Origin: Phytohabitans maris
GTDB lineage: Bacteria; Actinomycetota; Actinomycetes; Mycobacteriales; Micromonosporaceae
Direction of reading: 5' to 3'
Length of the DNA: 64,000 bases
Assembly: GCF_031085175.1 (NCBI RefSeq)
Contig: NZ_JAVHUY010000022.1
Location: 62,001 to 126,000, forward strand
Position 1 is the stretch's first letter; each line of letters opens with the position of its first letter. Position numbers and translations under genes: made by a program. A model generated the notes under the pieces. The model was not told where the DNA came from. It saw only the letters and a program-made list of their open reading frames with translations, and did not search any database. Positions 1-42,836 of the stretch are shown piece after piece.

Positions 1-311
1 TCGACGGCGTTCGTGACGAGGATGCCGTAGCCGTCACCCGGCCGCGCGAGCATCCGGCGGACGACCGCCCGGCCCTCCTCCCGGCCGAGGTCCAGGCTCA
101 CCGAGCGCTTGTGCCGGTTGAGCCCCGCCCAGTAGAGGCTGCTGCCGTCGGGAGCGAGCGGAAGCCGGCGCGTGTCCGGCGCCCCGCCCAGCGGGTCGAC
201 CCGGACGACGTCGGCGCCGAGCTGGGCCAGCACCATGGTGCCCGACGGCCCGGCCACGAACGTGGACAGGTCGAGGACGTGCAGCCCGGACAGCGGGCCG
301 GTGGAGACCAC
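1..311 (-). CDS. CaiB/BaiF family CoA-transferase, N-terminal part (cut by window edge)
   Basis: First 103 or so codons of a family III CoA-transferase, which moves CoA between organic acids. The N-terminal Rossmann-like segment is clear: residues VAGPSGTMVLAQLGADVVRV followed by the NRHKRSVSLDLG segment are typical of the family. The rest, including the catalytic Asp, lies outside the window. The GTG start at 311 comes 3 bases after the stop of the upstream VOC gene, so the two form an operon. Family assignment is firm; the substrate is unknown. The catabolic neighbourhood suggests activation of an organic acid. Confidence 0.85.
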   Translation of the reverse strand, partial: MVSTGPLSGLHVLDLSTFVAGPSGTMVLAQLGADVVRVDPLGGAPDTRRLPLAPDGSSLYWAGLNRHKRSVSLDLGREEGRAVVRRMLARPGDGYGILVTNAV

Positions 312-314
312 GGC

Positions 315-824
315 TCACTCGAAGGGGGAGACGAAGGGTACGCCGGCGGCGGCCGCGGCCTCGGCGATCCAGCCGCCGATCTCGGCCGCGATCTCGTGCG
401 AGACCAGTTCGATCCACATGCCGGGCGCTTGCGGGTTGTAGTGGAACGAGGCCCGGGTGATCCTGCCGTCCTCGGGCACGCCGGACAGCTCGCGCCGGTA
501 GCCCTGGGCCTCCAGCGCCGCGGCGGCGGCCGTGAGGTCGTCGGTGTAGTAGCCCAGGTGGTGGATGTACCGGCCGCCGGTGAGGGAGAGGTACGGCCCG
601 GCGTCGATCTGCTCCAGGAGCTCGACGAAGTGCGGCCCCCGCAGCGAGTACGTGAACCGGACGTGGCGGTCCCGCACGCCTTCGGGGCAGAGCAGCGGGG
701 TCTTCGCCTCCTTCGGCGGCGCCCAGAGCAGACCGAGCGCGCCGCCCATCTGGACCATGGCTTTGTCCAGATCGTCGACGATCATGCCGGTGTGGTAGAG
801 CCGCAGCAGTGGTCCGGTGCCCAT
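315..824 (-). CDS. VOC (glyoxalase/methylmalonyl-CoA epimerase-like) family protein
   Basis: A 169-residue vicinal-oxygen-chelate protein with two beta-alpha-beta-beta-beta modules. The four usual metal-ligand positions are occupied: His in RLYHTG, Glu in HFVELLE, His in YIHHLGYY and Glu in MWIELV. This fits a metal-dependent isomerase, epimerase or lyase acting on a small acid or CoA ester. The ATG at 824 was chosen because it follows a good ribosome site (GGAGGAG); an in-frame ATG at 857 lacks one. It is co-transcribed with the CoA-transferase and divergent from the P450 gene. The substrate cannot be read from the sequence. Confidence 0.8.
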   Translation of the reverse strand: MGTGPLLRLYHTGMIVDDLDKAMVQMGGALGLLWAPPKEAKTPLLCPEGVRDRHVRFTYSLRGPHFVELLEQIDAGPYLSLTGGRYIHHLGYYTDDLTAAAAALEAQGYRRELSGVPEDGRITRASFHYNPQAPGMWIELVSHEIAAEIGGWIAEAAAAAGVPFVSPFE

Positions 825-849
825 CTCTCCTCCTCGGTCAAGAGTGATA

Positions 850-863
850 TTACACATCGCTAA
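850..863 (+). promoter_or_regulatory. Weak match to the shared NTTTRCATKRYTAW motif
   Basis: TTACACATCGCTAA matches 11 of 14 positions of the motif seen at 8879, 30822, 37303 and 41526. It lies in the divergent promoter between the VOC gene and the P450 gene, 26 bases upstream of the VOC start. Weak on its own; listed because it is in the same kind of place as the better sites. Confidence 0.25.
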
Positions 864-904
864 GCATTCGCCAAACGCCGTTGACGTGCCAGAACCCCGG
901 ATGT

Positions 905-917
905 ACTAATAGTTAGT
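905..917. promoter_or_regulatory. Small inverted repeat in the VOC/P450 divergent promoter
   Basis: ACTAA-TAG-TTAGT is a perfect 5-bp inverted repeat in an A+T-rich island, 33 bases before the P450 start. It is a plausible operator for a TetR- or MarR-type regulator. The arms are short, so chance is possible. Confidence 0.3.
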
Positions 918-949
918 GAGGTTAAGCTTTGTGTCGGGGAGGAGCAGCC

Positions 950-2179
950 ATGCTGGCGGTCCAGAGCCTGCTGGCGCAGGAGACGGAGCGCGACCCGCAC
1001 GCGTACTACGCCTACCTTCGCGAGCACGATCCGGTCCACTACGACGAGGAGGCCGGGGCGTACCTGCTGACCCGCCACGAGGACGTCGGAGCCGCCTACC
1101 GCAACCCGGCGTTCTCCACCGCGAACTACCGCTGGCAGCTCGAACCGGTCATGGGGCGCACGATCCTGCAGATGGACGGCCGGGAGCACGCGAGCGTACG
1201 GGGGATGATGAGCCCCTCCTTCCGCGGCCAGGGCCTGCGGGCCTGGCTGCCGCTGATCGAGCGCACGGTCGGGGAGCTGCTCGACGACTCCCTTCGCACC
1301 ACAGTGGACAGTCTGGTCGGCCGGATGGCGAAGGGCGGCGAGGTCGACCTGGTGCCGCGCTTCAGCCACCTGCTGCCGGTCTACGTGATCGCCGAAGTGC
1401 TCGGGCTACCCAGATCCGACCACGAGCTCTTCTACGGCTGGTACCAGGCGCAGAGCCAGTTCCTGTCCAACCTCTCCCGCGATCCGCGGGTCGAGCGCCG
1501 CGGAGCGCGGGCACTGAAGGAGCTTCGGGAGTACCTCGCGCCCCTCGTCGCCCGCCGCCGCGCCGAGCCGGGTGACGACTTCGTCTCGAAGCTGGCGCGG
1601 GCGGAGGTCGACGGCCGGCGGCTGACCGACGAAGAGGTGATGACGCACGCCACCCACCTGCTCAACGCCGGCTCGGAGACCACCGACCGCACCGTGACCA
1701 ACCTGCTGAACCATCTGCTCACGGTGCCGGAGCGCTACGCGGCCGTACGCGACGACCGCTCACTCGTCCCGCGGGCGATCGGCGAGACCCTCCGGCTCAC
1801 GCCACCCTCGCAGATGAACGGGCGGGTGACGACCGAGGACGTCGAGGTCCGCGGGGTGCGGATTCCGGCCGGCTCGTTCGTGCTGCTCGTCATCGCCTCG
1901 GCCAACCGGGACGAACGCAGGTTCGCCAACGCGGCGCGGTTCGACATGTACCGCGACGACCTCCGGCACGAGCAGGCGTTCAGCGGCGTCGGGGAGCACT
2001 TCGCGTTCGGGTTCGGGCGCCACTTCTGCCTCGGTGCGACGGTGGCCCGAAGCGAGCTGGAGATCTCGCTCAACGCCCTCCTCGACGCGTTTCCCGACAT
2101 GCGGCTGGCGCCCGGCTTCGTCGCCGAGGAGCGCGGCCTCAAGATGCGCTCGCCGCGGGCGCTCCGCGTCGTCCTCTAG
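950..2179 (+). CDS. Cytochrome P450
   Basis: A 409-residue soluble bacterial P450 of normal length. Visible marks are the I-helix oxygen-activation motif NAGSETT, the K-helix ExxR as ETLR and the heme-binding loop FGFGRHFCLG (residues about 353-362, ligand Cys about 360). It needs a ferredoxin and reductase; a ferredoxin-reductase fusion is encoded at 18228-19901. It is closely similar to the P450 at 9991, including the shared LRLTPPSQMNGRV stretch. The ATG at 950 follows GGGGAGGAG. It is first in an operon with acyl-CoA synthetase, CoA-transferase and crotonase genes, so it probably hydroxylates the substrate or a side chain of it. Substrate unknown. Confidence 0.95.
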   Translation: MLAVQSLLAQETERDPHAYYAYLREHDPVHYDEEAGAYLLTRHEDVGAAYRNPAFSTANYRWQLEPVMGRTILQMDGREHASVRGMMSPSFRGQGLRAWLPLIERTVGELLDDSLRTTVDSLVGRMAKGGEVDLVPRFSHLLPVYVIAEVLGLPRSDHELFYGWYQAQSQFLSNLSRDPRVERRGARALKELREYLAPLVARRRAEPGDDFVSKLARAEVDGRRLTDEEVMTHATHLLNAGSETTDRTVTNLLNHLLTVPERYAAVRDDRSLVPRAIGETLRLTPPSQMNGRVTTEDVEVRGVRIPAGSFVLLVIASANRDERRFANAARFDMYRDDLRHEQAFSGVGEHFAFGFGRHFCLGATVARSELEISLNALLDAFPDMRLAPGFVAEERGLKMRSPRALRVVL

Positions 2180-2252: not shown

Positions 2253-4430
2253 ATGGCAACGCTGGAGTACGACAAGCGCCGTGCCTTGGTGACGCCGGGC
2301 CGTCTGCGCCACCTCTTCGGCGCCCGGCGCCTGGCCGTCGTGGGCGCTTCCAGTACGTCCAGCTGGGCGCGGAACCTGGTGCGCAGCCTCAACGCCGCCG
2401 GCGGGCTCAAGGAACTCGTCTTCGTGCACCCGAAGTACCCGGAGCTCTTCGGCCAGGCCACCGTGCCCAACCTGCGCGACCTCGAGGAGCCGATCGACCT
2501 CGCGTTCCTGATGGTGGGCCCGAGCCGGGTCGACGAGATCATCGAGGACGCCGCGGCCGCCGGTATCCGCAACGCCGTCGTCCTGGCGGCGGGCTACGGG
2601 GAAACCGGCCAGGACGGGCGCGCGCGGCAGCTCGCACTGGCCGAGCACGCCCGGCGGCTGGACGTCACCGTGATGGGACCCAACACGATCGGCTTCATCA
2701 ACGCGACAGCCGGCATCGCCCCCTGGGCCGTCGCCACCGAGCGTCCCCCGCTGAAGGGAACGGTCAGCGCCGTGTTCGAGAGCGGGTCGATGGCCCGCGC
2801 CACGCACGAGTTCGCCCAGGCCCACGGCGTCGGCGCGAGCCTCTGGGCCTCGGTCGGCAACTCCGCCGTACTCACCAGCCTGGACGTCCTGGAGTACCTC
2901 CTCGAGGACGAGCCGACCAGAGCCGTCGCGCTGTTCCTGGAGACGGTGGGCGAGCCCGACCGGCTGCTCGCGCTGGGCCGGCGCGCCCTGGAGCTCGACA
3001 AGCCGATCGTGGCCTTCAAAGCCGGCCGCACCGAGGCCGGCCAGCGCTCGGCCATGGCGCACACCGGTGCCGTCGCCACGGACGACGCCGTCGTCGACGC
3101 CCTCTTCCGGCAGGCCGGCATCGTCCGGGCGGAGAGCCTGGAGGAGCTGGTCAGCACCGTCGGGCTGTTCGGCCACTACCCCGAGCGTCCCAAGGGGCGG
3201 CGGATGGGCGTGGTCACCTCGTCCGGGGGCGGCTGCAACATCATCGCCGACCTGGCCGCCGCCAACGGCCTCGACCTGCCGGAGTGGGAGCGGTCGACCG
3301 TCGACGCGCTCGCCGAGCACCTGCCGCCGTTCGCCTCGATCCTCAACCCGCTGGACACCACCGGGTTCGGTCACGCGCGGGCCAGACCCCGCCCGACCAA
3401 GGCCGAAGACGACCTGATGGAGATCGCCGTCAAGGACAGCGGCATCGACTTCATGTTCACGATGATGACGCCGCTTCCCAGCAGCCGGCCGGAGGACCCG
3501 GCCTTCATCGAGAGCCGGCTGGAGATCCTCGGCCAGATCGTCCGCGATGCCCCGGTACCCCTGTTCCTCGCCTCCAACACCTGCCTGGACCTGCCCGACT
3601 ATCCGCGCGGCCTGCTCGCCGGGGCCGGTCTCCACCTGCTGCCGGGCGCGGACCTGGCGCTGAAGTCCCTGGGCCACCTGATGCGCTGGGTGGACCTGCG
3701 CGCCAGCGTGCTCGCCGACGAACCCCCCGCCCGGGTATCGCCGGACGGCGGCTCGGGTCCGGCGCTGACCGGTACGTGGGCCGAGGACGAGGGGCGCGAC
3801 CTGCTCACCGCCCACGGTGTGCCGATGGCGCCGGCCGTCCTGGTGACCGACCGGCGGGACGCCGCCCGGCTGGTCGCCGAGTGGGACGGGCCGGTCGCCA
3901 TGAAGGTGTGCTCGCGCGAGATCGCCCACAAGTCGGACATCGGCGGCGTGATCCTCGGTGTCGGCAGCCCACCGGCGGCCGAGGCCGCGTTCGACCGCAT
4001 CCTCGCCGCCGCCGCGACGCACGTGCCAGAAGCCACCGTCCGGGGTGTACTCGTCTCGCCGATGCGCACCGGGGGACTGGAGATGCTGATCGGCGTGACC
4101 AGCGATCCGACGTTCGGCGCGGTGCTCGCCGTGGGGCTGGGCGGGATCTGGGTCGAGGTGTTCAAGGACGTGAGCCTCCGGGTGCTGCCGGTGTGTCCGG
4201 GCACGGTGAAGGAGATGCTGCTGGAGCTGAAGGCGGCACCACTGCTGCGCGGCGTACGCGGCGTCGCGCCCGTCGACCTCGACGCGCTCACCGACGTCAT
4301 CATGGCGGTGAGTCGCGCGGCGCTCGCCCTCGGCGACCGGCTGGAGACGCTGGAGGTCAACCCGCTGCGCGTCGACGGCGCCGTGGTGGAAGGGCTCGAC
4401 GCGCTCGTCGTGACGGGGGACCGGGCATGA
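2253..4430 (+). CDS. NDP-forming acyl-CoA synthetase (acetate-CoA ligase family)
   Basis: A 725-residue fused alpha-beta acyl-CoA synthetase. In order: N-terminal CoA-binding Rossmann domain (RRLAVVGASS, about residues 25-35), succinyl-CoA-ligase-like flavodoxin folds with the GPNTIGF loop, the phosphohistidine region AMAHTGA (about residue 270), and a C-terminal ATP-grasp domain (about 510-725) with the VAMKVCSREIAHKSDIGGV segment typical of the family. These enzymes make acyl-CoA with release of ADP and phosphate. The ATG at 2253 was chosen because the protein begins there with family-like sequence. The next gene overlaps it by ATGA. Confidence 0.9.
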   Translation: MATLEYDKRRALVTPGRLRHLFGARRLAVVGASSTSSWARNLVRSLNAAGGLKELVFVHPKYPELFGQATVPNLRDLEEPIDLAFLMVGPSRVDEIIEDAAAAGIRNAVVLAAGYGETGQDGRARQLALAEHARRLDVTVMGPNTIGFINATAGIAPWAVATERPPLKGTVSAVFESGSMARATHEFAQAHGVGASLWASVGNSAVLTSLDVLEYLLEDEPTRAVALFLETVGEPDRLLALGRRALELDKPIVAFKAGRTEAGQRSAMAHTGAVATDDAVVDALFRQAGIVRAESLEELVSTVGLFGHYPERPKGRRMGVVTSSGGGCNIIADLAAANGLDLPEWERSTVDALAEHLPPFASILNPLDTTGFGHARARPRPTKAEDDLMEIAVKDSGIDFMFTMMTPLPSSRPEDPAFIESRLEILGQIVRDAPVPLFLASNTCLDLPDYPRGLLAGAGLHLLPGADLALKSLGHLMRWVDLRASVLADEPPARVSPDGGSGPALTGTWAEDEGRDLLTAHGVPMAPAVLVTDRRDAARLVAEWDGPVAMKVCSREIAHKSDIGGVILGVGSPPAAEAAFDRILAAAATHVPEATVRGVLVSPMRTGGLEMLIGVTSDPTFGAVLAVGLGGIWVEVFKDVSLRVLPVCPGTVKEMLLELKAAPLLRGVRGVAPVDLDALTDVIMAVSRAALALGDRLETLEVNPLRVDGAVVEGLDALVVTGDRA

Positions 4431-5716
4431 GCGGGAGTCGCGAGGCTACGGACATCGACCACGGCGGTGGGCGAGCGCCGAGCGACGGAGCGGGGGTAGG
4501 CAAGGGCCACAACCCGCGGGGTGCGCTCGCCGGCGTGCGGGTACTCGATTTCACCCGGTTCCTGCAGGGCCCGTACGCGACCCGGCTCTTCGCCGACATG
4601 GGCGCCGACGTGCTCAAGGTCGAGCGACCGGGTGGTGAATGGGACCGGCGGCTGCGGCCGGCGAAGGACGGGTTCACCGGGTTCTTCCACGGGCTCAACC
4701 GGGGAAAGCGGTCGGTGGCGATCGACATTTCCATCCCGGAGGGGCGCGACCTGGTCCTCGAACTGGCGCGCGAGGTGGACGTGGTCGTCGAAAACTTCCG
4801 GCCCGGGGTCCTCGACCGGCTCGGGCTGGGCTACGAGGCGCTCAAGGCCGTCAACCCGCGGATCATCTACGCCGGTGCCTCCGGCTACGGGCCGGGTGGC
4901 CCGCGCAGCGACGAGCCGATGTACGACATGGTCGCCCAGGCGGTCTCCGGCGTGTCGGACTTCATGCGCAGCCCGGAAGGGGTTCCCCGGCTCGCCACCC
5001 GGGCGATGGCCGACTCGGCGGGCGCGATGTTCCTGGCCATGGCGGTGGTCACCGCCCTGTACGTGCGGGAGCGGACCGGGCAGGGGCAGCGGGTCGACGC
5101 CAGCCTGGTCGGCTCCTGCCTCGGGATGCACACCGCCGAGGTGACCATCGCGCTGTACGAGAACCGGGTCCACCGGCCGCAGGGGCGGGTCACGTCGACC
5201 TCCGGTGCGTTCCGGTGCCGCGACGACCGTTGGTTGGTGATCGGTGCCACCGACCAGAAGCTCTGGCGCAACCTCACCCAGGCGCTCGGGCGGCCGGACC
5301 TGGTCGACGACGAGCGGTTCGCGTACGGCAAGATCCGCGAGGCCAACCGGGCGGTGCTCGAACCGATCCTGGAGGAGGTCTTCCGCACCGCCGACCGCGA
5401 CGAGTGGGTGGAGCGGATGCGCGCGGCCGACGTGCCGGTCGCGCCGGTCCAGACCTTCCTGGAGGTCGCCGACGACCCGGATGTGCTGGCCAACGGGTAC
5501 GTCGTGGAGCAGGACGATCCCGAGTGGGGCAAGGTCCGCACCGTCGGCCACCCGTTCCACATGAGCCTGACCCCCGGTGAGGTGGGGCCGGCGACGCCGG
5601 CCCTCGGCGAGAGCACCCTCGCCGAGCTGCGCCGGCTCGGGCGCACCGGCGAGGAGGCCGCGGACCTGCGGGCCCGCGGCGTGGTCGAGTTCCGGGAGGA
5701 GGGCGCGGCGGCATGA
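4427..5716 (+). CDS. CaiB/BaiF family III CoA-transferase
   Basis: A 429-residue, full-length single-domain family III CoA-transferase. The core starts near residue 35 (GVRVLDFTRFLQGPYATRLF) after a Gly/Asp-rich leader. The NRGKRSVAIDI, VENFRPGVLDRLGLGY and GQRVDASL segments are characteristic, and the probable nucleophilic Asp lies in RAMADSAGAM. It probably moves CoA to the acid made upstream in the pathway. It overlaps the synthetase and the next crotonase by 4 bases on each side, which points to translational coupling. Confidence 0.93.
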   Translation: MSGSREATDIDHGGGRAPSDGAGVGKGHNPRGALAGVRVLDFTRFLQGPYATRLFADMGADVLKVERPGGEWDRRLRPAKDGFTGFFHGLNRGKRSVAIDISIPEGRDLVLELAREVDVVVENFRPGVLDRLGLGYEALKAVNPRIIYAGASGYGPGGPRSDEPMYDMVAQAVSGVSDFMRSPEGVPRLATRAMADSAGAMFLAMAVVTALYVRERTGQGQRVDASLVGSCLGMHTAEVTIALYENRVHRPQGRVTSTSGAFRCRDDRWLVIGATDQKLWRNLTQALGRPDLVDDERFAYGKIREANRAVLEPILEEVFRTADRDEWVERMRAADVPVAPVQTFLEVADDPDVLANGYVVEQDDPEWGKVRTVGHPFHMSLTPGEVGPATPALGESTLAELRRLGRTGEEAADLRARGVVEFREEGAAA

Positions 5717-6630
5717 AACCCAAACGCTGGGGTACGCCGGAGAGCCTCGCGGCCGCCGACCAGCAGGTGCTCTACGACGTCGACCGGGCGGGCGTCGCGT
5801 ACATCACGCTGAACCGGCCGGAGAAGCACAACGCGCTGAGCGTGCCGATGCGCGAGCGCGTCGCCGAGCTGGTCGCCGCGGCCGACGCCGACGACGACGT
5901 GCGGGTTCTGGTCTTCCGGGGCAACGGCAGGTCCTTCTGCAGCGGCAACGAAATCAACGAGGAGTGGGGGCAGCGGCGGCCGCACGAGCGCCGCCGGACC
6001 CTCGACGTGGGCTACCGGTACGGCGCCGACATGGCCTGGGGGCGGCTGGGCTTCAGCCAGGCGATCTCCCGGTCGGACAAGGTCACCATCGCTCAGGTCC
6101 ACGGCTACTGCGCGGCGGCGGCGTACTTCATGATCGCCTGCAAGTGCGACCTCGTGGTGGCGGCCGCGGACGCCCGGATCGGGGCCCTGGAGGCGCGGTT
6201 CCTCGGCCCGGCGGGTGCGGTGGCCAGCGTGCACATCAACCGCATCCTGGGCATGAAGGCGGCCCGCCGGACCGGCTTCACCGCCAAGCCGATGAGCGGG
6301 ACGGAGGCGTACGACCTGGGGCTGGTGTACCGGTGCGCACCGGTCGAGGAACTGCCCTCGGTGACCGGGGAGATAGCCCGCGACATCGCCGCCCGACCCG
6401 CGGGCGCGCTCGACTTCCTGGTGGCTCGGCTACGCGCCGCGGAGGGCCTGATGGATACCAGCGTTCCGGCGATCACCGGGCTGCTCGTCTCGCACTTCCT
6501 GCAGGCGGCGCCCGACGAGATGGACTTCTGGCGCACGGCCCGCCGGGTCGGCGTGGGCGGTGCCCTCGATGCCGACAAGGCCCGCAAGGGCGCGGCCGAC
6601 CCGCGCGCGGACAGGAACCCGGCCTCATGA
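5713..6630 (+). CDS. Enoyl-CoA hydratase/isomerase family protein (crotonase 1)
   Basis: A 305-residue crotonase-fold protein. The oxyanion-hole segment FCSGNE and the second-glutamate region (IGALEARF) are present. The usual GGGxE glutamate position falls in HGYCAAAAYFMIAC and appears to be Met, so only one of the two hydratase glutamates is kept. It may be an isomerase, hydrolase or C-C lyase rather than a simple hydratase. First of three consecutive crotonases joined by 4-base overlaps. Confidence 0.9.
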   Translation: MKPKRWGTPESLAAADQQVLYDVDRAGVAYITLNRPEKHNALSVPMRERVAELVAAADADDDVRVLVFRGNGRSFCSGNEINEEWGQRRPHERRRTLDVGYRYGADMAWGRLGFSQAISRSDKVTIAQVHGYCAAAAYFMIACKCDLVVAAADARIGALEARFLGPAGAVASVHINRILGMKAARRTGFTAKPMSGTEAYDLGLVYRCAPVEELPSVTGEIARDIAARPAGALDFLVARLRAAEGLMDTSVPAITGLLVSHFLQAAPDEMDFWRTARRVGVGGALDADKARKGAADPRADRNPAS

Positions 6631-7346
6631 TCGACGTCAAGGTGGCCGACTGGGTCGGCACGGTACAGGTGGCGGACTTCGCCGGGCTGTCGCGCTACGA
6701 CGCGGCGTTCGCCTGGGAACTGCGGGATACCGTCGTCGCCCTCGCCGACGACAGCGAGGTCAAGGTGATCGTGCTCCGCACGGACGGCGGAGACTTCGCA
6801 CCGGACGTACCCGGGGCGCCGCTCCCGTCGGACCGGTCGGCGACCTGGCGCCGGGTCTTCGCCGGTGCCAAGGGCTTGTACCAGTCGCTCGCCTTCTGCA
6901 AGAAGGTGGTCGTCACCGAAGTGACCGGCGCGTGCCGCGGCGCCGGAAGCGCCCTCGTGCTCTGCTCCGATCTGACCGTGGCCGCCGAGGAGAGCAGCTT
7001 CGGTTCGCCGTTCCTGGCCGTGCCGGAGTCCAACTTCGTTCTGGCCGCGCTGACGATGAGGCTCAACCGGGCCAAGGCGTGGGCCGTCACCGGCGACGTC
7101 CTCGACGCAGCCCGCGCCGAAGAGGTCGGGCTGGTCAACCAGGTCGTCCCGGGCGCGTCGCTCAGAGCCGAGACGGACGCGCTGGCCGCCCGCGTCACAG
7201 CCATGCCCCTCGACGGGGTGACCATGTCCAAGATGCTGCTCCAGGCGGTGCTCGACGCCCACGGGGTGGGCCGCGACTTCGACCTCGCGACGCACTACGC
7301 GGCCCGCCGGCGGCATGCCGAGAACGCGGGAGGTGGGGCGCTATGA
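6627..7346 (+). CDS. Enoyl-CoA hydratase/isomerase-like protein (crotonase 2), degenerate active site
   Basis: A 239-residue crotonase-fold protein. The CoA-binding scaffold is recognisable (GACRGAGSALVLCSDLTVA, and MRLNRAKAWAVTGD in the second half). Both canonical glutamates are replaced: by alignment with rat-type hydratase they are Ala and Phe (FGSPFLAV). It may be a non-hydratase crotonase or a structural partner of its neighbours. It overlaps both neighbours by 4 bases. Confidence 0.85.
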   Translation: MIDVKVADWVGTVQVADFAGLSRYDAAFAWELRDTVVALADDSEVKVIVLRTDGGDFAPDVPGAPLPSDRSATWRRVFAGAKGLYQSLAFCKKVVVTEVTGACRGAGSALVLCSDLTVAAEESSFGSPFLAVPESNFVLAALTMRLNRAKAWAVTGDVLDAARAEEVGLVNQVVPGASLRAETDALAARVTAMPLDGVTMSKMLLQAVLDAHGVGRDFDLATHYAARRRHAENAGGGAL

Positions 7347-31741: not shown

Positions 31742-31821
31742 GCGAGCGAAGCGAGCGAATCATCAGACAGAGCGCGTGCGGTGCCTCATGCCCGCCCGCA
31801 GCGAAGCGAGGACGGGCATGA
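31738..31821 (+). other. 27-codon linker ORF/repeat between livH and the livM-livG fusion
   Basis: An 84-base stretch opens with ATG overlapping the livH stop (ATGA) and closes with a stop overlapping the next ATG (ATGA at 31818). It encodes a peptide beginning MSERSERIIRQ and is rich in GAGCGAAGCGAG-type repeats. It may be an inserted repeat kept in frame so that translation re-initiates from gene to gene. A functional peptide is unlikely but not excluded. Confidence 0.45.
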
Positions 31822-34459: not shown

Positions 34460-34460
34460 A

Positions 34461-36061: not shown

Positions 36062-36105
36062 TGCTGGAACGAGCGGGGGAGGCTGCTAGAACGAGCGGGG
36101 GAGGC
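36062..36105. repeat. 22-bp tandem duplication at the end of the acyl-CoA dehydrogenase gene
   Basis: TGCT(G/A)GAACGAGCGGGGGAGGC occurs twice back to back (36062-36083 and 36084-36105) with one base difference. One copy is the last codons of the dehydrogenase (LPRSF and stop); the other lies just past the stop. It looks like a recent replication slip. Confidence 0.8.
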
Positions 36106-37246
36106 CCTGCGCCTCCGCGACCATGTTGCGCGCCATCTCGCCGGTGATCGGCGCGATGCGGTACAGCCGGGAGTCGCGCCAGTAGCGCTGCATGTCGGTC
36201 TCCATGGAGTAGCCCAGGCCGCCGAGCAGCTGGATGCCCCGGTCGGCGGCCTGGTTCGCGTACTCGGCCGACACGTAGTGGGCCAGGGTCGCCTCGACCC
36301 CGCAGGGCCGGTCCAGCGACTGCAGCCAGGCGGCCCGGCGCACCAGCAGCTCCGCCTGCTCACGCCAGGCGACCATGTCGGCGACGTAGTGCTGCAGCGC
36401 CTGGAACTGGCCGATCGGCTTGCCGAACGCCTGGCGCTCCTTGACGTACTGCAGCGCGTCCTCCAGCACCGCGTCGAGAACGCCGAGCGCGGACGAGGCG
36501 GTGATGATCCGTTCGTTGTTGAGCGTCGGCAGGAGCTGGTGCCAGCCTCGACCGCGCACCCCGATCAGCATCTCGTCGGGCACGACCACGTCGTCGAAGA
36601 AGACCTCGCAGGCCGCGAAGCTGCGCATGCCGAGCTTGGGGATGCGCCGGATGTCCAGTCCGGGCGTGGTCGTGGGGACCAGCACGGCGGTGAGCGCAGA
36701 CCTGGACCGGCCGACCTCGTGGTCCTTGGCGAGCACGACGAGGTAGTCGGAGGTGTTGGCGCCCGAGGACCACACCTTCTGGCCGTTGAGCCGCCAGCCA
36801 CCGGGAACCTTGTCGATCCGGGAACGCATCGCGCCGAGCAGGTCGGTGCCCCCGCTCGGCTCGGTGATCGCGATGGAGAAGCGGATCTCACCCCGCGCCA
36901 GCCGGGGAAGGTACTCGGCTTTCTGCTCCGCCGTGCCGTACGTCGAGAGGGTCTTGCCGCCGGCGAACGACGAGACGCCCCAGACGCCGGAGAGCCCGCC
37001 GAGGTTTCTGGTCAGCTCCCTGGCGAGGATCGACTGGGTCACCACGTCGCCGCCCTCGCCGCCGTACTCCGGGTCGATCCCGATGCCGTGGAATCCGGCC
37101 TTGGCCATGTCGTTCCAGAGGTCGACGGGGAAGACGCCGTCGGCCGCCTCGATCGCCCGGCACCGCTCTTTGGGGTAGTTGTCGTCGACCCAGGACCGCA
37201 CGAGGCGGGTGAAAGCGACCTGCTCGGTGTCGAGGTCGAAATCCAT
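36086..37246 (-). CDS. Acyl-CoA dehydrogenase family protein
   Basis: A 386-residue flavoprotein of normal acyl-CoA dehydrogenase length. Signature ITEPSGGTD (FAD/substrate), KVWSSGANTSDYLVV, ERQAFGKPIGQFQ and the C-terminal GGLGYSMETDMQRYWRDSRL are clear. The base that is Glu in medium-chain enzymes (YEGT) is not visible: the aligned stretch reads IAPITGEM. It may use another base or perform a different elimination. ATG at 37246 with AGGGAGC. It is divergent from the ligase/thiolase operon, and a shared motif lies between them. Confidence 0.92.
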   Translation of the reverse strand: MDFDLDTEQVAFTRLVRSWVDDNYPKERCRAIEAADGVFPVDLWNDMAKAGFHGIGIDPEYGGEGGDVVTQSILARELTRNLGGLSGVWGVSSFAGGKTLSTYGTAEQKAEYLPRLARGEIRFSIAITEPSGGTDLLGAMRSRIDKVPGGWRLNGQKVWSSGANTSDYLVVLAKDHEVGRSRSALTAVLVPTTTPGLDIRRIPKLGMRSFAACEVFFDDVVVPDEMLIGVRGRGWHQLLPTLNNERIITASSALGVLDAVLEDALQYVKERQAFGKPIGQFQALQHYVADMVAWREQAELLVRRAAWLQSLDRPCGVEATLAHYVSAEYANQAADRGIQLLGGLGYSMETDMQRYWRDSRLYRIAPITGEMARNMVAEAQGLPRSF

Positions 37247-37302: not shown

Positions 37303-37316
37303 TTAACCATGCAAAC
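37303..37316 (-). promoter_or_regulatory. Candidate operator, motif NTTTRCATKRYTAW
   Basis: Reverse strand reads GTTTGCATGGTTAA, in the 121-base gap between the divergent acyl-CoA dehydrogenase and CoA ligase genes, so it could control both. Confidence 0.4.
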
Positions 37317-37367: not shown

Positions 37368-39023
37368 GTGACGACTGTGACCGAGGATGCTCGGGACGAG
37401 GCACGAGCCCAGCGTGAGGCGGCCTACGTCGATGCCGGTCTGTGGGACGACGAGCGGCTCGGTTGGCTCGTCTACCGGGTGGCGCGCGACTTTCCGGACC
37501 GCGAGTTCCTCTGCATCGACGAGCTTCGTCTCACCTACGGCGAGTTCACCTCCTGGGCCACGGCGATAGCCACGGACCTCGTCGCCAGGGGAGTGCGGCG
37601 GGGCGACCGCGTGCTCGTCCAGCTCGCCAACCGCGTGGAGGCGTTGCTGGCACAGGTGGCCGCGTTCCGGATCGGTGCGGTCTCGGTGCCCGTGGTCCCG
37701 ATCTACCGTGAGCACGAGATGCGCCACATCGTCGCCGACTGCCGGCCGGCGGTGGTCATCGCCGGGCAGGACACCGCGACCCGGCGCCCCTGCGCGGAGT
37801 TCGAGCGGCACCTGGCCGGCGCCGGCCTCGACGGCACCGTCCGATACGTCGTCGGGGAGACGACCGTGCCCGGGTGGGCGCCGTTTCCGGCACGGCCGGA
37901 CGGGCCGCGCGAGGAGGCCGGCCTCCCGGATCCGCTGGAGCCGGAGGCGTGCGCGCTCATCCTTTACACGTCGGGCACCACCTCGGCGCCGAAGGGCGTG
38001 ATGCTGACCGGCCGGGCGTTCGTGGCCAACAACCGCAGCGTCGGCGCGCGGATGGCGTGGACCGAGGACGAGGTGTTCTTCTGCTGCGCGCCGCTGTCGC
38101 ACCTGGCCGGCTTCGTCAGCGGCTTCGCCTGGCCGGTGAGCGTCGGCGCCCGTGTGGTGATCATGCCGAAGTGGGACGGCGACGCGGCCGCCCGCCTGAT
38201 CGAGCGGGAGCGGGTCACGTTCACCACCGGCGCCGCGGTGTTCCTGCACGATCTGGTCCGCGGCTACCGCGACGGTCTGGGCGCGTCGCACCGCATCACC
38301 CGCTTCGTCAGCGGCGGCGCCGCGACACCGCCGGGCCTGATCCGGGAGGCGGACGCGCTCGGCGTGCACGCGATGCGGGGCTACGGCATGACCGAGACCG
38401 GCGGCGGGATCACCTTCCCCGGGCTCGACAGCGACCTCGAACGGCGGGCCGACTACGACGGGCGGCTCATCGACGGCACCGAGCTCGAGGCGGTCGACGC
38501 GTACCGGCGCCCGCTGCCGCCCGGCGCCGAGGGAGAGCTGCGCACCCGGGGGCCGCAGAGCCTCATCGGGTACACCGATCCGGCCCTCACCGCCGCGCAG
38601 GTGGACGAGGACGGCTGGTTCTACACCGGCGACGTGGGCACGGTCGACGCCGAGGGCTGGCTGCGCGTCACCGGCCGGATCAAGGACATCATCAACCGGG
38701 GTGGGGAGAAGTTCTCGGCGCGCGACATCGAAGAGGCGATCGTCGCGCATCCCGACATCGACCGCGCGGCGGTGGTCGGCGTGCCCGACGAGCGCTTCGG
38801 CGAGGCCGTCGGGGCGTTCGTCACGCTGGCGCCCGGGGTCACCTGGACCGGGCCGGAGAGCGTGCTCCGGCACCTGGAGACGTCGCGGCTCACCAAGCAG
38901 AAGTTCCCCACCGAGTGGTACGTCCTCGACGAGCTCCCGGCGACCGCCTCCGGCAAGATCCAGAAGCATCTCCTCCTGGAGCGTCGTTCCGACCAGAAAG
39001 GGAAGTCCACGCGTGGCACGTGA
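37368..39023 (+). CDS. AMP-forming acyl-CoA synthetase
   Basis: A 551-residue ANL ligase, third of its kind in the window. Motifs: LYTSGTTSAPKGV, GYGMTETGG, TGDVGTV hinge, INRGGEKFS and the catalytic ASGKIQKH. GTG at 37368 follows GGGAGGA. The operon it leads (thiolase-like, DUF35, MaoC) suggests that it activates a side-chain or ring-derived acid for beta-oxidation. It overlaps the next gene by 11 bases. Confidence 0.93.
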   Translation: MTTVTEDARDEARAQREAAYVDAGLWDDERLGWLVYRVARDFPDREFLCIDELRLTYGEFTSWATAIATDLVARGVRRGDRVLVQLANRVEALLAQVAAFRIGAVSVPVVPIYREHEMRHIVADCRPAVVIAGQDTATRRPCAEFERHLAGAGLDGTVRYVVGETTVPGWAPFPARPDGPREEAGLPDPLEPEACALILYTSGTTSAPKGVMLTGRAFVANNRSVGARMAWTEDEVFFCCAPLSHLAGFVSGFAWPVSVGARVVIMPKWDGDAAARLIERERVTFTTGAAVFLHDLVRGYRDGLGASHRITRFVSGGAATPPGLIREADALGVHAMRGYGMTETGGGITFPGLDSDLERRADYDGRLIDGTELEAVDAYRRPLPPGAEGELRTRGPQSLIGYTDPALTAAQVDEDGWFYTGDVGTVDAEGWLRVTGRIKDIINRGGEKFSARDIEEAIVAHPDIDRAAVVGVPDERFGEAVGAFVTLAPGVTWTGPESVLRHLETSRLTKQKFPTEWYVLDELPATASGKIQKHLLLERRSDQKGKSTRGT

Positions 39024-40185
39024 GGATCGCACTCCCGTCATCTGTGGCATCGGGCTGTCCGACTACCCGAAGGCCCCTCACCTCGACGCCCGGGGACACC
39101 AGGCCCAGGCCCTGCGGCGGGCGCTGGCGGACTCGGGTGTCCGCAAGCAGGACATCGACGGTCTGGCCGTCGCCGAGGCGTGGATCCCCGGCGTACCGGG
39201 CTCGGACCTGCCCGAGACCGCCGAGTTCCTGGGCATCGACGCCAGGTGGCTCGACGGCACCTACACCGGGGGATCGGCCTACGAGTTTCAGCTCCAGCAC
39301 GCCGAGGCGGCGATCCGGGAGGGTCTGGCCCACACCATCGTGCTCGTCTACGGCAGCGACCTGCTGACCCGGCTGGGCCGGTCGCTCGGCACGGCCTACG
39401 GCCGCCCACCCATCGGGGCCCAGCAGTACGAGGCGCCGTACGGGAACCCGACCGTGGCGGCGTACGCGATGGCCGCCCAGCGGCACATGTACCAGTACGG
39501 CACCACGGCGGAGCAGCTGGCCCAGATCGCCGTCGGCGTCCGCGAGTACGCCGCCCTCAACCCGAACGCGATGTACCGCGACCCGATCACCGTCGACGAC
39601 GTGCTGGGCTCCAGGATGGTCGCCGATCCGCTCCACCTTCTGGACTGCTGCGCGATCACCGACGGCGGCGGCGCGGTGATCGTCACCACCGAGGAGCGGG
39701 CGCGCGACCTCAGACAGCCGCCGGTCTACATCCTGGGCACCGCGGCCCGCCAGACGCACTGGTCCGTGAGCCAGGCCCCCGACCTCACCACCACGGCCGG
39801 CGCGCTCGCCGGCCCGGACGCCTTCGCCCGGGCCGGGCTCGCCCCGAAGGACGTCGACATGGTGATGCTCTACGACAGCTTCACCATCACCTGCCTGCTC
39901 CTGCTGGAAAGCCTCGGGTTCTGCGCTCCCGGCGAGGGCGGCGCGTTCGTGGAGGCGGGAAACCTGCGCAAGGGAGGTGCCCTTCCGATGAACACCGACG
40001 GGGGCGGGCTCTCCTCCTGCCATCCCGGGCTGCGCGGCATCTTCCTGCTCATCGAGGCCACGCGGCAGCTGCGCGGTGCCGCCGGCGACGCACAGGTACC
40101 GGGCTGCGAGGTCGCGCTGGCCGCCGGTTCGGGTGGCTGGCTGTCCACGATCGGTGTCTCGATCCTCGGAAGGAGTGCGCGATGA
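39013..40185 (+). CDS. Thiolase-like protein (SCP-x/lipid-transfer thiolase type)
   Basis: A 390-residue thiolase-fold protein of the type that pairs with a DUF35 protein. It shows the family segments GHQAQALRRALADSGV, YEAPYGNPTVAAYAMAAQRHMYQYG and NTDGGGLSSCHPGLRG. Such proteins act in thiolytic or retro-aldol cleavage of side-chain CoA esters. GTG at 39013 overlaps the ligase stop; a purine-rich site (GAAAGGGAAG) precedes it. The next gene overlaps by 4 bases, as expected for a thiolase/DUF35 complex. Confidence 0.88.
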   Translation: MAREDRTPVICGIGLSDYPKAPHLDARGHQAQALRRALADSGVRKQDIDGLAVAEAWIPGVPGSDLPETAEFLGIDARWLDGTYTGGSAYEFQLQHAEAAIREGLAHTIVLVYGSDLLTRLGRSLGTAYGRPPIGAQQYEAPYGNPTVAAYAMAAQRHMYQYGTTAEQLAQIAVGVREYAALNPNAMYRDPITVDDVLGSRMVADPLHLLDCCAITDGGGAVIVTTEERARDLRQPPVYILGTAARQTHWSVSQAPDLTTTAGALAGPDAFARAGLAPKDVDMVMLYDSFTITCLLLLESLGFCAPGEGGAFVEAGNLRKGGALPMNTDGGGLSSCHPGLRGIFLLIEATRQLRGAAGDAQVPGCEVALAAGSGGWLSTIGVSILGRSAR

Positions 40186-40610
40186 CGCTCGAAGTGATCG
40201 ATGTCGAGGACTGGGACCGGCCGCTGCCGGGAAACGACCCGCTCGCCAACGAGTACTTCCGGCTCTGCGCCGCCGGCACGCTCACGATCGAGCGCTGCCC
40301 GCAGTGCCGCTCCGCCCAGCACTACCCGCGCGGCATCTGCATGAGCTGCGGCGCGACGCCCGTGTTCGAGGCGGTCTCCGGCCTGGGCACGGTCTACACG
40401 TTCAGCGTCGTCCGGCAGAACGGCGTGCCGCCGTTCAAGGGCATGGTCCCGTACGTGCTGGCGCTGGTCGACCTGGACGAGGGTCCCCGGCTGATGGGAA
40501 ACATCGTCGACTGCGAGCCCGGTGAGGTGGCCGTCGGCGCCCGGGTGCGGGCGTTCGTGATGCGGGCCAACCCGGACGTCGGCATCCCCCAGTGGCGCCT
40601 GGCCCGATGA
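40182..40610 (+). CDS. DUF35 OB-fold protein with rubredoxin-like zinc ribbon
   Basis: A 142-residue acyl-CoA-associated protein. The N-terminal zinc ribbon has two CxxC pairs (CPQC and CMSC, residues about 39-56), followed by an OB-fold (GLGTVYTFSVVRQN, PYVLALVDLDEGPRLMGNI). DUF35 proteins form complexes with thiolase-like enzymes and assist retro-aldol, hydratase or thiolase steps. Overlaps by 4 bases with both neighbours. Confidence 0.93.
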   Translation: MTLEVIDVEDWDRPLPGNDPLANEYFRLCAAGTLTIERCPQCRSAQHYPRGICMSCGATPVFEAVSGLGTVYTFSVVRQNGVPPFKGMVPYVLALVDLDEGPRLMGNIVDCEPGEVAVGARVRAFVMRANPDVGIPQWRLAR

Positions 40611-41458
40611 GTCTCGACGTCGGGGTCGTGGGCCAGCCCTGGCCGCCGGAGCCGCGCACCTGGTCGAGCAGTGACGCCCTGCTCTACGCGCTGGGCGTCG
40701 GCGCGGGCTCGGACGAGCGCTTCGACGAGCTGGCGTTCGTCACGGAGAACTCCGCGGGCCGGCCGCAGCAGGTGCTGCCCTCCTTCGTGGTCACCCTGGC
40801 GTCGCTGGGTCTCGACCCGCGCCTCGGCGGCTTCGAGCTGAGCCAGGTGCTGCACGCGGGGATGGAGATCGAGCTTCGGGCCGCCCTGCCGCCGGAAGGG
40901 TCCGTCGAGGCGGACACCGTCGCCGAGGCGATCCTGGACAAGGGCCGAGACGCCATCGTGGTGCTGCGTACCACCCTCCGCGACCCGCACACCGGCGCGC
41001 CCGTGGCCGTGACCCGCAGCACCAGCCTCGTGCTGGGCGAGGGAGGTTTCGGCGGCGGGCGCGGCCCCGCGCCGGCCGAATGGCGACTGCCGGCCCGCGA
41101 CCCGGACGCGAGCCTGCGGATGGAGACGCGCGTCGAACAGGCGTTGCTCTACCGGCTCAGCGGCGACCGCAACCCGCTGCACTCCGACCCGGTCGCCGCG
41201 GCGCGGGCCGGGTTTCCGCGGCCGGTACTCCATGGACTGTGCACGTTCGGCGTGGCCGCCCGCGCGTTGCTGCACGCCTACGCGGGCGGGGATCCCGGCC
41301 GGTTCGGCCGGATGGGCGTGCGGTTCACCGCGCCGGTGTATCCGGGCCAGGACCTGTTGGTGAACGTGTGGAAGACTGGCGGCGGCGTCCAGTTCCAGGC
41401 CCGCGCCGGCGACCGCGTGGTCCTCGACCGCGGTGTCTTCGCGCTCCGCGCTTCCTGA
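40607..41458 (+). CDS. MaoC-like (R)-specific enoyl-CoA hydratase, two hotdog domains
   Basis: A 283-residue two-domain hydratase. The C-terminal domain carries the hydratase-2 motif SGDRNPLHSDPVAA (Asp and His) and FPRPVLHGLCTFG. The N-terminal hotdog (about residues 15-130) probably binds the acyl chain. It would hydrate the enoyl-CoA produced by the acyl-CoA dehydrogenase encoded divergently. Last gene of the operon. Confidence 0.92.
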   Translation: MSLDVGVVGQPWPPEPRTWSSSDALLYALGVGAGSDERFDELAFVTENSAGRPQQVLPSFVVTLASLGLDPRLGGFELSQVLHAGMEIELRAALPPEGSVEADTVAEAILDKGRDAIVVLRTTLRDPHTGAPVAVTRSTSLVLGEGGFGGGRGPAPAEWRLPARDPDASLRMETRVEQALLYRLSGDRNPLHSDPVAAARAGFPRPVLHGLCTFGVAARALLHAYAGGDPGRFGRMGVRFTAPVYPGQDLLVNVWKTGGGVQFQARAGDRVVLDRGVFALRAS

Positions 41459-41525
41459 GCCTGTGTGAAATCCGGGTCACGATCCGATGACAGATCCTTG
41501 ACGTGACCTGTGACCTGTGCAACTG

Positions 41526-41539
41526 TTTTGCATTGTTAA
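41526..41539 (+). promoter_or_regulatory. Candidate operator, motif NTTTRCATKRYTAW
   Basis: TTTTGCATTGTTAA, in the 196-base gap upstream of the LivK-type lipoprotein gene. The gap also has the direct repeat GTGACCTGTGACCTGTGC just before it. No gene is seen in the gap. Confidence 0.4.
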
Positions 41540-41654
41540 GTGATACGTGGATAGGTGGCGTTGTGAGCGCCGCGATGCCGGCCGGACCAGCGCGGCGGCT
41601 TGGGGACTGGGGCCTCTCCTCTCATCGGATGACATCGGCGAAGGGCACATTCCT

Positions 41655-42836
41655 GTGAAACGAATCCACGCGACCGCGGCGGGCATCTCCGCCCTCCTGC
41701 TGCTCCTGACGGCCTGCGGCGGCGGCGACGAGACCGGCCAGGGCGGCGAGGGCGGCGGCGAAGACCTCGTGGTGGCCGTCCCGGTCCCGCTCACCAGCGG
41801 CAACAGCGCGGCCGCCCAGATGATGCTCAACTCGGCGAAACTCGCGGTCAAGGACATCAACGCCGGCGGTGGCGCGGGCGGGCGCAACCTCGTCGTCAAG
41901 GAGTACGACGACAAGCTCTCCCCGGACGAGTCGGTCAAGGTGGCCCAGCGCGCGGTGACGGTGGACAAGGCCCAGGCGGTCGTCGGTGCGTACACGACGA
42001 TCGAGGGACTGGCGATCCGCCAGGTGACCGAGCCCCGCAAGATCGTCTTTCTCGGTCCGTCGACCATCTCGCCGGCGTTCCTCGACAAGGCGGTCTATAC
42101 CTACCGCGTCGGCCACGACCAGCGCGACTACCCGGTGCAGATGATGGAGCTGCTGACCAAGCTCGGTTACAAGAAGCCGGTCGTGCTCGCCGACGACGGG
42201 CCGACGGGCGCCACGCTGTTCGGCCCGATCGAGGAAGCGGCCAAGGCCGCCGGGCTCCAGCCCGCCGCCACCGTGAAGTACGCCCTCAACGCGACCGACC
42301 TCTCCGGCCCGATCGCCGAGATCAAGCGCTCGGGAGCCGACTCGGTGATCGCCATCGGCAGCTCCGCCGCCGACGCCGGCCTGGCGATGAAGACGATGGT
42401 GGAGCAGGGCGTGCAGACGCCGGTGCTCGGGTTCAGCTCGCTCATCGCGCCGGACGCCCTCAAGATCGGCGGCGACGCCTACACGAAGCTGCCGGCGATC
42501 TACACCTTCTCCAACATGCAGCCGTCGAAGCCGCAGTACCAGGAGTTCGCGAAGAAGTACGCCGACGAGTACAACAACGGCACGGAGGTGGCCCTGGTCG
42601 AGCAGGCCGGCGCGACGTACGACGCGTTCATGATCCTGGACAGGGCGCTCGACAAGACCGGCGGCGACACCGACGGGGAGAAGCTGGCGCAGGCCCTGGA
42701 CGGCATGGAGCCCGTCGAGGGTGTGAGCGGCAAGCAGGGCTGCCAGATGAGCTACAAGGAAGGCCACAGCGCGTTCAAGCTCTGCCTCGTCGCCTTCAAG
42801 TTCGAAAACGGCAAGCCGGTCGAGCAGGCCGGCTGA
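41655..42836 (+). CDS. ABC transporter substrate-binding lipoprotein (LivK-like, periplasmic-binding type 1)
   Basis: A 393-residue lipoprotein. The signal peptide ends in the lipobox LLTAC (Cys about 21), followed by a Gly/Glu-rich linker and a Leu/Ile/Val-binding-protein domain (VVAVPVPLTSGNSAA, AVVGAYTTIEGLAIRQV, KKPVVLADDG). It should deliver substrate to the LivH/LivMG/LivF complex encoded 7 kb upstream. The start is GTG at 41655, in front of a positively charged signal sequence. A hairpin follows the gene. Confidence 0.92.
   Translation: MKRIHATAAGISALLLLLTACGGGDETGQGGEGGGEDLVVAVPVPLTSGNSAAAQMMLNSAKLAVKDINAGGGAGGRNLVVKEYDDKLSPDESVKVAQRAVTVDKAQAVVGAYTTIEGLAIRQVTEPRKIVFLGPSTISPAFLDKAVYTYRVGHDQRDYPVQMMELLTKLGYKKPVVLADDGPTGATLFGPIEEAAKAAGLQPAATVKYALNATDLSGPIAEIKRSGADSVIAIGSSAADAGLAMKTMVEQGVQTPVLGFSSLIAPDALKIGGDAYTKLPAIYTFSNMQPSKPQYQEFAKKYADEYNNGTEVALVEQAGATYDAFMILDRALDKTGGDTDGEKLAQALDGMEPVEGVSGKQGCQMSYKEGHSAFKLCLVAFKFENGKPVEQAG

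Follow-up and report, generated by a model that had tools for sequence, protein, structure and literature searches.

A conserved gene block in Phytohabitans maris as a candidate regulon for uptake and degradation of an alicyclic or terpenoid acid

In the bile acid (bai) operon of gut clostridia, genes for a coenzyme A (CoA) ligase, a CaiB transferase, a SnoaL_4 dehydratase and a transporter stand together, as they do in a block of genes of Phytohabitans maris that we describe here. Unlike this block, the bai operon is anaerobic and is not known to have a cytochrome P450, a crotonase trio or a Liv-type importer. The window that we analysed is a stretch of 64,000 nucleotides (contig NZ_JAVHUY010000022.1 of assembly GCF_031085175.1, G000:C15:62001-126000 in our numbering) from a genome of 9.87 Mb in 95 contigs; the block occupies its positions 1 to 42,836 and continues to the left. 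We propose, with a probability of about 0.5, that the block is a regulon for the uptake and degradation of one carboxylic acid; we infer an alicyclic or terpenoid, most likely branched, substrate.

A search of literature titles and abstract openings returned no described pathway that matches the block gene for gene, in line with the preliminary description of this DNA. Several systems resemble parts of it. The steroid side-chain retro-aldolases Ltp2-ChsH2 and Sal-Shy, as presented in passages of PMC12329534, combine a thiolase fold lacking the usual nucleophile, a YD-x-F/Y motif, a DUF35 partner and an adjoining hydratase, all of which recur here. The block differs in its motif (YDSF, not YDHF or YDCY), in having DUF35 and MaoC as separate genes, and in that HsaA does not indicate a steroid nucleus pathway. 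EchA20 and BadI, crotonases that open alicyclic CoA thioesters in steroid and cyclohexane catabolism according to passages of PMC5380842, are a precedent for the crotonase ring opening proposed below. Here, by comparison, three crotonases are linked, two of them without the usual glutamates, and no IpdAB-type CoA-transferase domain occurs in the 60 proteins (40 from the window and 20 related ones) that were scanned with Pfam and to which all our domain negatives refer. Rhodococcus sp. P1Y is reported to remove a C2 unit from abscisic acid to give dehydrovomifoliol, through enzymes that the authors leave open (passages of PMC9599779; see also PMC7996341). The MaoC/retro-aldolase set of our block would be expected to act in this way, taking C2 off a branched terpenoid acid and leaving a methyl ketone; however, the passages of PMC9599779 name no genes, and no Rhodococcus locus among the 37 loci checked carries the core of the block. 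Lastly, the 4-hydroxyacyl-CoA kinases of the levulinate lva operon and ACAD10/11 (PMC12440821, PMC11342911) belong to the same kinase family as g24 of the block, which is related to ACAD11. Unlike LvaA and ACAD11, the run g23-g24-g25 has no acyl-CoA dehydrogenase, the only one in the window being g33, and g25 has no Pfam family.

Extent and conservation of the block

Genes called in the window are numbered g1 to g58, and those called to its left (locus L008) carry u-numbers. Positions 1 to 42,836 hold 38 genes, with a GC content at third codon positions of 0.91-0.97 and 8% of intergenic sequence. The window edge cuts the cluster: the block measures about 56 kb, of which about 13 kb lie further left. 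It is kept from u8 to g38 (about C15:48,738-104,836) in Phytohabitans suffuscus (G300, treated as the same chromosome as the record G297), where each of its 50 gene pieces (u19 and g1 being one gene) has a match of at least 74.8% identity; g10 is 93% and the P450 g12 94% identical. The flanks differ between the two species: among u1-u7 (7 genes) and g39-g58 (20 genes), only three have any match in the fetched P. suffuscus stretches, all at 35% or less. Conservation of the block between unmatched flanks argues that the gene set is not a chance assembly.

Family assignments rest on Pfam and NCBIfam scans. These bear out the inventory of the preliminary description: three adenosine monophosphate (AMP)-forming ligases (g16, g27, g34) and one nucleoside diphosphate (NDP)-forming ligase (g4), CoA-transferases (the CaiB protein g5, plus g1, cut by the window edge), four crotonases (g6, g7, g8, g26), short-chain dehydrogenases/reductases (SDRs; g21, g32 and the epimerase-like g13), one acyl-CoA dehydrogenase in the window (g33), a thiolase-like/DUF35/MaoC set (g35, g36, g37), a ferredoxin reductase fusion (g18), a molybdoenzyme (g17), a Liv importer (g29-g31, with binding protein g38) and twin P450s (g3 and g12, 58% identical over 409 residues). 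The block further contains a FabF-like ketosynthase (g20), SnoaL-like proteins (g11 and g22, perhaps g10), a glyoxalase-fold protein (g2), MarR and PaaX regulators and two tandem-TetR regulators. Its part left of the window, which includes a beta-oxidation set, comprises a tandem-TetR-like regulator (judged by eye), a thiolase, a FadB-like protein, SDRs, an acyl-CoA dehydrogenase (u12), a crotonase-SnoaL fusion, a third P450 (u14), a small ferredoxin, a ferredoxin reductase, an unnamed protein and the remainder of a CaiB transferase (u19). The features of the core, importer and aldolase operon are as follows (window positions).

3..311, minus strand: g1, N-terminal part of CaiB CoA-transferase number 2, continuing left as u19 (Pfam CoA_transf_3, profile positions 1-83)
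315..824, minus: g2, glyoxalase-fold protein (Glyoxalase_4), 70% identity in both Arthrobacter, 57% in G085
913..925, plus: operator-like dyad TTA-N7-TAA upstream of P450 g3
950..2179, plus: g3, cytochrome P450, paralogue of g12
2253..4430, plus: g4, NDP-forming acyl-CoA ligase (core), 58-64% in G085 and Arthrobacter
4427..5716, plus: g5, CaiB-type CoA-transferase (core)
5713..6630, plus: g6, crotonase A (core), one of the two usual Glu retained
6627..7346, plus: g7, crotonase B (core), without both usual Glu
7343..8203, plus: g8, crotonase C (core), without both usual Glu
8218..8688, minus: g9, MarR regulator, candidate dyad binder
8880..8892, minus: dyad copy with one mismatch, between g9 and g10
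8942..9517, plus: g10, small core protein without Pfam or NCBIfam family; a weak model hints at a SnoaL/NTF2 fold
9527..9988, plus: g11, SnoaL_4/LinA-like protein, probable dehydratase (core)
9991..11229, plus: g12, cytochrome P450 (core)
11226..12317, plus: g13, PRISE-like enone reductase, with a 57% relative near the core in G375
30696..30708, plus: dyad copy 1 before the Liv operon
30822..30834, plus: dyad copy 2 before the Liv operon
30878..31741, plus: g29, Liv permease, 62-63% in Arthrobacter
31818..33692, plus: g30, Liv permease-ATPase fusion, 60-62% in Arthrobacter
33689..34411, plus: g31, Liv ATPase, 64-65% in Arthrobacter
36086..37246, minus: g33, acyl-CoA dehydrogenase
37303..37315, plus: dyad copy between g33 and g34
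37377..39023, plus: g34, AMP-forming acyl-CoA ligase
39013..40185, plus: g35, thiolase-fold protein without N-terminal nucleophilic Cys, with YDSF, probable retro-aldolase
40182..40610, plus: g36, DUF35 partner (ChsH2 C-terminal type)
40607..41458, plus: g37, double hot-dog MaoC hydratase
41527..41539, minus: dyad copy before g38
41655..42836, plus: g38, Liv-type substrate-binding protein, 52% in both Arthrobacter

What we call the core consists of the NDP-forming CoA ligase, CaiB, three crotonases, two small SnoaL-like proteins, a P450 and MarR. The genes g4-g5-g6-g7-g8-g10-g11-g12 recur in unchanged order in Arthrobacter sp. AZCC_0090 (58-78% identity), in a second Arthrobacter genome (G375, 57-77%) and, at 54-76%, in G085, which belongs to another family. 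The Liv genes and binding protein of both Arthrobacter lead into g4, with the second CaiB gene (the counterpart of u19 plus g1, conserved beside Liv) divergent alongside, and g9, the third P450 and g2 lie close to the core; g9 and g2 also stand at the core of G085. MarR matches near the core reach 52-56% in G085 and both Arthrobacter, G375 having two adjacent ones (53% and 41%). By these comparisons the conserved core is linked to a predicted Liv importer in Phytohabitans and Arthrobacter, with a conserved MarR gene nearby. This upholds the earlier view of a CoA-thioester catabolic set with a dedicated importer: the Liv genes and the core form one run in both Arthrobacter, and in Phytohabitans they have a dyad in common. 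A PRISE relative (57%) lies about 9 kb from g12 in G375; none was found in the AZCC_0090 pieces fetched. After g12, the Arthrobacter loci continue with an HTD2-like hydratase (Pfam FAS1_DH_region, 23.1 bits for a cut-off of 22), an SDR, a thiolase and crotonase-like pieces.

The core is rare in every genome sample. The samples (296, 61, 2, 198, 396 and 295 genomes) were searched with differing queries, and in those of 396 and 295 only the best few candidates per genome were scored. We found g10 in two of six Phytohabitans genomes and none of 55 other genomes sampled, in 2 of 198 genomes sampled of the Arthrobacter genus and in one of two in the genus of G085. The g6 profile at 1e-60 retrieved one of 396 genomes of the phylum (P. 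maris itself) and, among 295 genomes of the Arthrobacter family, only AZCC_0090. In another sample, 23 of 296 genomes had a P450 match at 1e-80; among the 22 besides our own, 10 neighbourhoods were fetched, and only that of G085 has the core. A scan of 84,980 species genomes through exact eight-residue words of g12 gave 21 loci, two of them with the core. Core genes at 50% identity or more were present in three of the 37 loci checked (L036, L048 and L049; the G375 pieces were mapped separately), and locus gene maps were examined for 18 of 68 loci in the AZCC_0090/G085 comparison. We also considered plasmid-borne spread and rejected it, as neither g10 (limit 1e-5) nor g6 (limit 1e-30) has a match in 72,556 plasmid records.

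Two observations concern the surroundings of the core in the other genomes. Near the core of both Arthrobacter (L087:336-3959 and L077:7299-8661) we noticed by eye genes resembling those of the 2-methylcitrate cycle, a hint of propionyl-CoA as a product. Beside the core of G085 (L037, G085:C87:40001-60000) are a Baeyer-Villiger-like flavin monooxygenase (Pfam FMO-like), a set of thiolase-like and DUF35 genes accompanied by MaoC-like ones (by eye), and homologues of g24 and g25 (47% and 26% identity) as a pair. In a separate cluster of the same genome, with thiolase-like and CaiB genes, a relative of the MaoC gene g37 (47%) precedes a distant homologue of g10 (29-34%; L091:9732-11137); proteins of the g10 family may therefore belong to clusters of this type in general.

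A shared dyad and the case for one regulon

Comparison of promoters across genomes led to a dyad TTAG-N6-TAA and, after more comparison, to the 13-bp pattern TTARYVWKRYWAA. The window contains five exact sites (913, 30696, 30822, 37303, 41527) and one with a single mismatch (8880), for shuffle expectations of 0.00 and 0.32, respectively; all six are intergenic. Across our own genome, six of eight dyad sites fall in the block (before u14, g3, twice before Liv, before g38, and between g33 and g34) and two elsewhere (C33, C63). All five sites of P. suffuscus are in the block, and the four Phytohabitans without the core have two in total. Because the pattern was fitted to known sites, we scanned 256 AT-rich dyad shapes with 3-base arms and spacers of 3-10. 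TTA-N7-TAA ranks first of these, with sites in 3 of 22 intergenic regions of the block against 0.12 expected, in none of 200 shuffles and in none of 44 flanking regions. With a looser pattern, three 20-kb pieces yield a single site apiece, located ahead of CaiB2/Liv in the two Arthrobacter and, in G085, between MarR and g4; L049 and L087 yield none. In Phytohabitans, this operator-like dyad ties the aldolase operon and the binding protein to the core and the importer.

The single pathway assumed in the preliminary description is thus supported in part, by the conserved core and by the dyad that joins the aldolase operon to it and to the importer, and is weakened by the lack of an aldolase ortholog in the other core-bearing genomes. 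The co-conservation proposed there as a check holds only in part: the core and MarR are conserved together, with Liv in Arthrobacter and, in one of these genomes, a PRISE relative, but homologues of the thiolase-like protein are no closer than 33-39%, and g16-g22 and g23-g27 lack the dyad.

A number of points weigh against the regulon proposed here. We fitted the 13-bp pattern with the sites already in view, and the choice of the 256 shapes likewise came later. The reversed pattern, which is absent from G000 and G300, occurs one to seven times in the four Phytohabitans without the core and reaches seven in G298, which has no block, so such counts can arise elsewhere. Together with g16-g22 and g23-g27, u9-u13 have no dyad copy and may be mere neighbours. 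The MarR protein g9 is a candidate binder by its position only. In G085, the 60 kb fetched around the core have no match to Liv, PRISE or PaaX, and the aldolase operon (g35) is represented in the three core-bearing genomes outside Phytohabitans by its 33-39% homologues, not by an ortholog. The PDB relative nearest to g35, 4u4e (E 1.5e-99), is titled only 'Thiolase', and the PaaX protein g15 would suit an aromatic acid.

Could the block instead be two or three independent catabolic units that happen to adjoin, with the core and importer, the aldolase operon, and the ketosynthase/molybdoenzyme and kinase operons each serving a substrate of its own? We regard this as a credible alternative of rather low probability. 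The distant g35 homologues, the dyad-free runs g16-g22 and g23-g27 and the separate tandem-TetR regulators are all what it would lead one to expect. It accounts less well for the presence of the dyad not only ahead of g3 and Liv but also ahead of g33/g34 and g38, for the persistence of the entire block in P. suffuscus despite different flanks, and for the thiolase-like/DUF35 set and g24-g25 pair that G085 has within about 20 kb of its core.

If the block does act as one regulon, the acid would be imported by the Liv system and receive its first thioester from the NDP-forming ligase, after which the CaiB transferases would move the CoA of a product onto incoming substrate. The P450s, with electrons supplied via ferredoxin reductases, would hydroxylate unactivated carbons, and the LinA-like protein would remove water, hydroxylation and dehydration together giving a double bond. 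The crotonases would hydrate or open the ring and the PRISE-like enzyme would reduce an enone, while the branched side chain would be shortened by a ligase, a dehydrogenase, the MaoC hydratase and the thiolase-like/DUF35 pair as retro-aldolase. MarR would leave the dyads in the presence of the substrate or its CoA ester.

Enzymes of the core and of the aldolase operon

Both P450s of the window retain FGFGRHFCLG and AGSET. In a midpoint-rooted tree of 14 rows, g3, g12 and the core P450s of Arthrobacter and G085 form one clade (100/100), within which g12 pairs with the Arthrobacter P450 at 90/87, below the threshold of the tool. Copies of both g3 and g12 are present in the two Phytohabitans species, so the duplication predates their split. 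The wider P450 family (40-48% identity; Geodermatophilus, Thermocrispum, Rhodococcus, Herbidospora, Streptomyces) was of no use as a guide to the pathway, since only L036, L048 and L049 of the 37 loci have core genes at 50% or more.

The crotonases are unusual at what we take to be the two catalytic Glu places. The first is lost and the second kept in g6; g8 has Tyr and Arg there in four of four sequences, and alignment places these opposite the two Glu of PDB 4k29. In g7, read by eye in three sequences and with no characterised enzyme aligned, the first place is Ala, Leu or Gly and the second Phe, only the second replacement being conserved. Loss of Glu alone is not unique, since solved crotonases also deviate, such as 3njb, an 'enoyl-CoA hydratase' with Asp and Met at these places. 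The best PDB match of g11 is LinA (E 4e-13); GVD and HWTTNH are kept in four of four aligned sequences and presumably hold the Asp-His dyad of LinA/scytalone-dehydratase-like lyases. For g10, a model of low confidence (predicted local distance difference test score 47.8) has no PDB fold match below E 0.001; many of the 50 weaker matches listed are ketosteroid-isomerase or epoxide-hydrolase folds, which may be a hint.

The PRISE reductase of the preliminary description, g13, stands on its relatives and falls short on its score: the best PDB matches are plant progesterone 5-beta-reductases and iridoid synthases (E 1e-25 to 1e-19), but its 25.0 bits do not reach the Pfam PRISE gathering cut-off of 27. 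GTKAY and NFYW are present in four of four aligned sequences (plant PRISE not being among the four), and their Lys and Tyr we take to be the PRISE catalytic places. PRISE relatives on plasmids (R. opacus 53%, Blastomonas 45%) were set aside as they are located without the core.

How might these core enzymes work together? We tentatively suggest, while considering it rather doubtful, that the core performs an undescribed kind of alicyclic ring opening. P450 hydroxylation and LinA-like dehydration would replace an acyl-CoA dehydrogenase, CaiB would recycle CoA, and the linked crotonase trio, two members of which lack the usual Glu, would cleave the ring, possibly as one hetero-oligomer. The whole would be a MarR regulon spread horizontally, for which a plant terpenoid acid, for instance abscisic acid or its cyclohexenone products, is a possible substrate. 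A replacement of the dehydrogenase is suggested because no homologue of g33 or u12 at 1e-5 is present in the Arthrobacter core pieces L049, L077, L087 and L088 or in L036, L037 and L038 of G085; weak homologues (23-31%) lie farther off, in L078 and L090. Abscisic acid is named for the C2 loss described in Rhodococcus sp. P1Y, as a candidate and not as a finding. With importer, MarR, operator, ligase, CaiB, crotonase trio, SnoaL-like proteins and P450, the set forms a compact and testable unit, and P. suffuscus NBRC 105367 and Arthrobacter sp. AZCC_0090 are named strains that carry it. Should the substrate be terpenoid or alicyclic, the unit would supply genes for a chemistry that is known, for abscisic acid, from metabolites without assigned enzymes (passages of PMC9599779), as well as crotonases with changed active sites for study.

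In the aldolase operon, g35 has no Cys at residues 12-211 and carries YDSF at 287, and g36 combines OB_ChsH2_C and zf-ChsH2, with zinc-ribbon Cys at 39, 42, 53 and 56. The pair resembles lipid-transfer-protein aldolases (g35 against PDB 6ok1, E 9e-53) and ChsH2 DUF35, and is likely to be a retro-aldolase of the Ltp2/Sal type. The corresponding motif is YDHF in Ltp2 and YDCY in Sal, and a Cys-to-Ser change in that of Sal left activity undetectable (passages of PMC12329534). With YDSF in g35 and a nearest entry named 'Thiolase', the retro-aldolase prediction is likely but not safe. The importer component of this region, the binding protein g38, has no PDB relative at 1e-20.

Such an aldolase raises the question of steroid or bile-acid catabolism, in which a ChsH/Ltp2-like enzyme would cut the side chain and the remaining genes would degrade the rings. 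This is very improbable, in spite of the likeness of g35-g36 to these enzymes and of the name of the g13 relatives, progesterone 5-beta-reductases. Among nine genomes, HsaA was above the cut-off in none of the five that bear the core (no match at 1e-20 in our own draft, only matches below the cut-off in the other four) and in two of the four Phytohabitans without it (G298, G302), and the thiolase-like gene is outside the conserved core. We therefore reject a steroid reading for the core; the steroid-like substrate entertained in the preliminary description is not supported.

An aromatic acid pathway of the phenylpropanoid or phenylacetate kind, with the P450s as hydroxylases or O-demethylases under a PaaX regulator, appears unlikely too. 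Besides g15 and the Liv-type importer, it can claim the hydroxycinnamoyl-CoA hydratase-lyases found among many distant PDB relatives of g6. Against this, the 60 proteins contain no Rieske, intradiol or PaaA-type domain, the last being that of the epoxidase in the phenylacetate (paa) system, for which the rest of the genome was outside the search. The only model above cut-off for g2 is a glyoxalase one, of a superfamily that also holds extradiol dioxygenases. Moreover, the pieces from Arthrobacter and G085 contain nothing that matches PaaX, and PRISE and the retro-aldolase would be superfluous.

Accessory operons and flanking genes

Between the core and the importer, and after the latter, lie the following further genes.

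12340..13167, plus strand: g14, xylose-isomerase-like TIM barrel protein
13422..14192, plus: g15, PaaX-family regulator
14202..15836, minus: g16, AMP-forming acyl-CoA ligase (best NCBIfam cyclohexanecarboxylate-CoA ligase, 511.9 bits, below the cut-off of 792.3)
15977..18223, minus: g17, molybdopterin oxidoreductase
18228..19928, minus: g18, ferredoxin / NAD(P) reductase fusion
19962..20741, minus: g19, 4HBT_3 thioesterase-like protein
20771..22030, minus: g20, FabF-like ketosynthase with motifs TACAS, HATGT and GHPAG
22096..22893, minus: g21, SDR
22950..23462, minus: g22, SnoaL-like protein
23615..24826, plus: g23, tandem TetR regulator
24849..25970, plus: g24, APH-family protein, candidate hydroxyacyl-CoA kinase
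25967..26494, plus: g25, partner of g24, no Pfam family
26505..27272, minus: g26, crotonase
27459..28994, plus: g27, AMP-forming acyl-CoA ligase
29406..30503, minus: g28, tandem TetR regulator
35122..36036, minus: g32, SDR

At 19962-23462, the ketosynthase g20 stands with SDR, SnoaL-like and thioesterase-like genes inside a catabolic block. SnoaL and P450 genes are common in biosynthetic clusters, and the TACAS, HATGT and GHPAG of g20 are, we assume, intact ketosynthase Cys-His-His motifs. A biosynthetic or tailoring cluster, in which these proteins and the P450 make or decorate a product, can be argued from this, yet there is little to recommend it: the block has an importer with binding protein, CoA ligases and, left of the window, a beta-oxidation set, nothing in the pieces from Arthrobacter and G085 matches g20, and no carrier-protein domain is found in the 60 proteins.

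The hydroxyacyl-CoA kinase of the preliminary description can be conjectured at the family level only: g24 is an APH-family protein with the motif HGDYRNGN whose PDB relatives include ACAD11, but also other kinases. The regulators g23 and g28 each have two TetR DNA-binding domains in one chain. A gene at L008:6738-7907 resembles them by eye, and a palindrome, CCTAGTGAATATTCACAAGG, adjoins it; we sought a dyad common to the accessory operons, and none stood out.

Just right of the block, at 43076-44837, are a SUKH/SMI1-domain protein and a small gene that matches no family; an immunity function is frequent among SUKH proteins. The remainder of the window, from 48594 to 64000, carries what appear by eye to be sugar ATP-binding cassette (ABC) importer genes, with permeases and the binding proteins g46, g53 and g55, of which g53 and g55 look alike at their N-termini.

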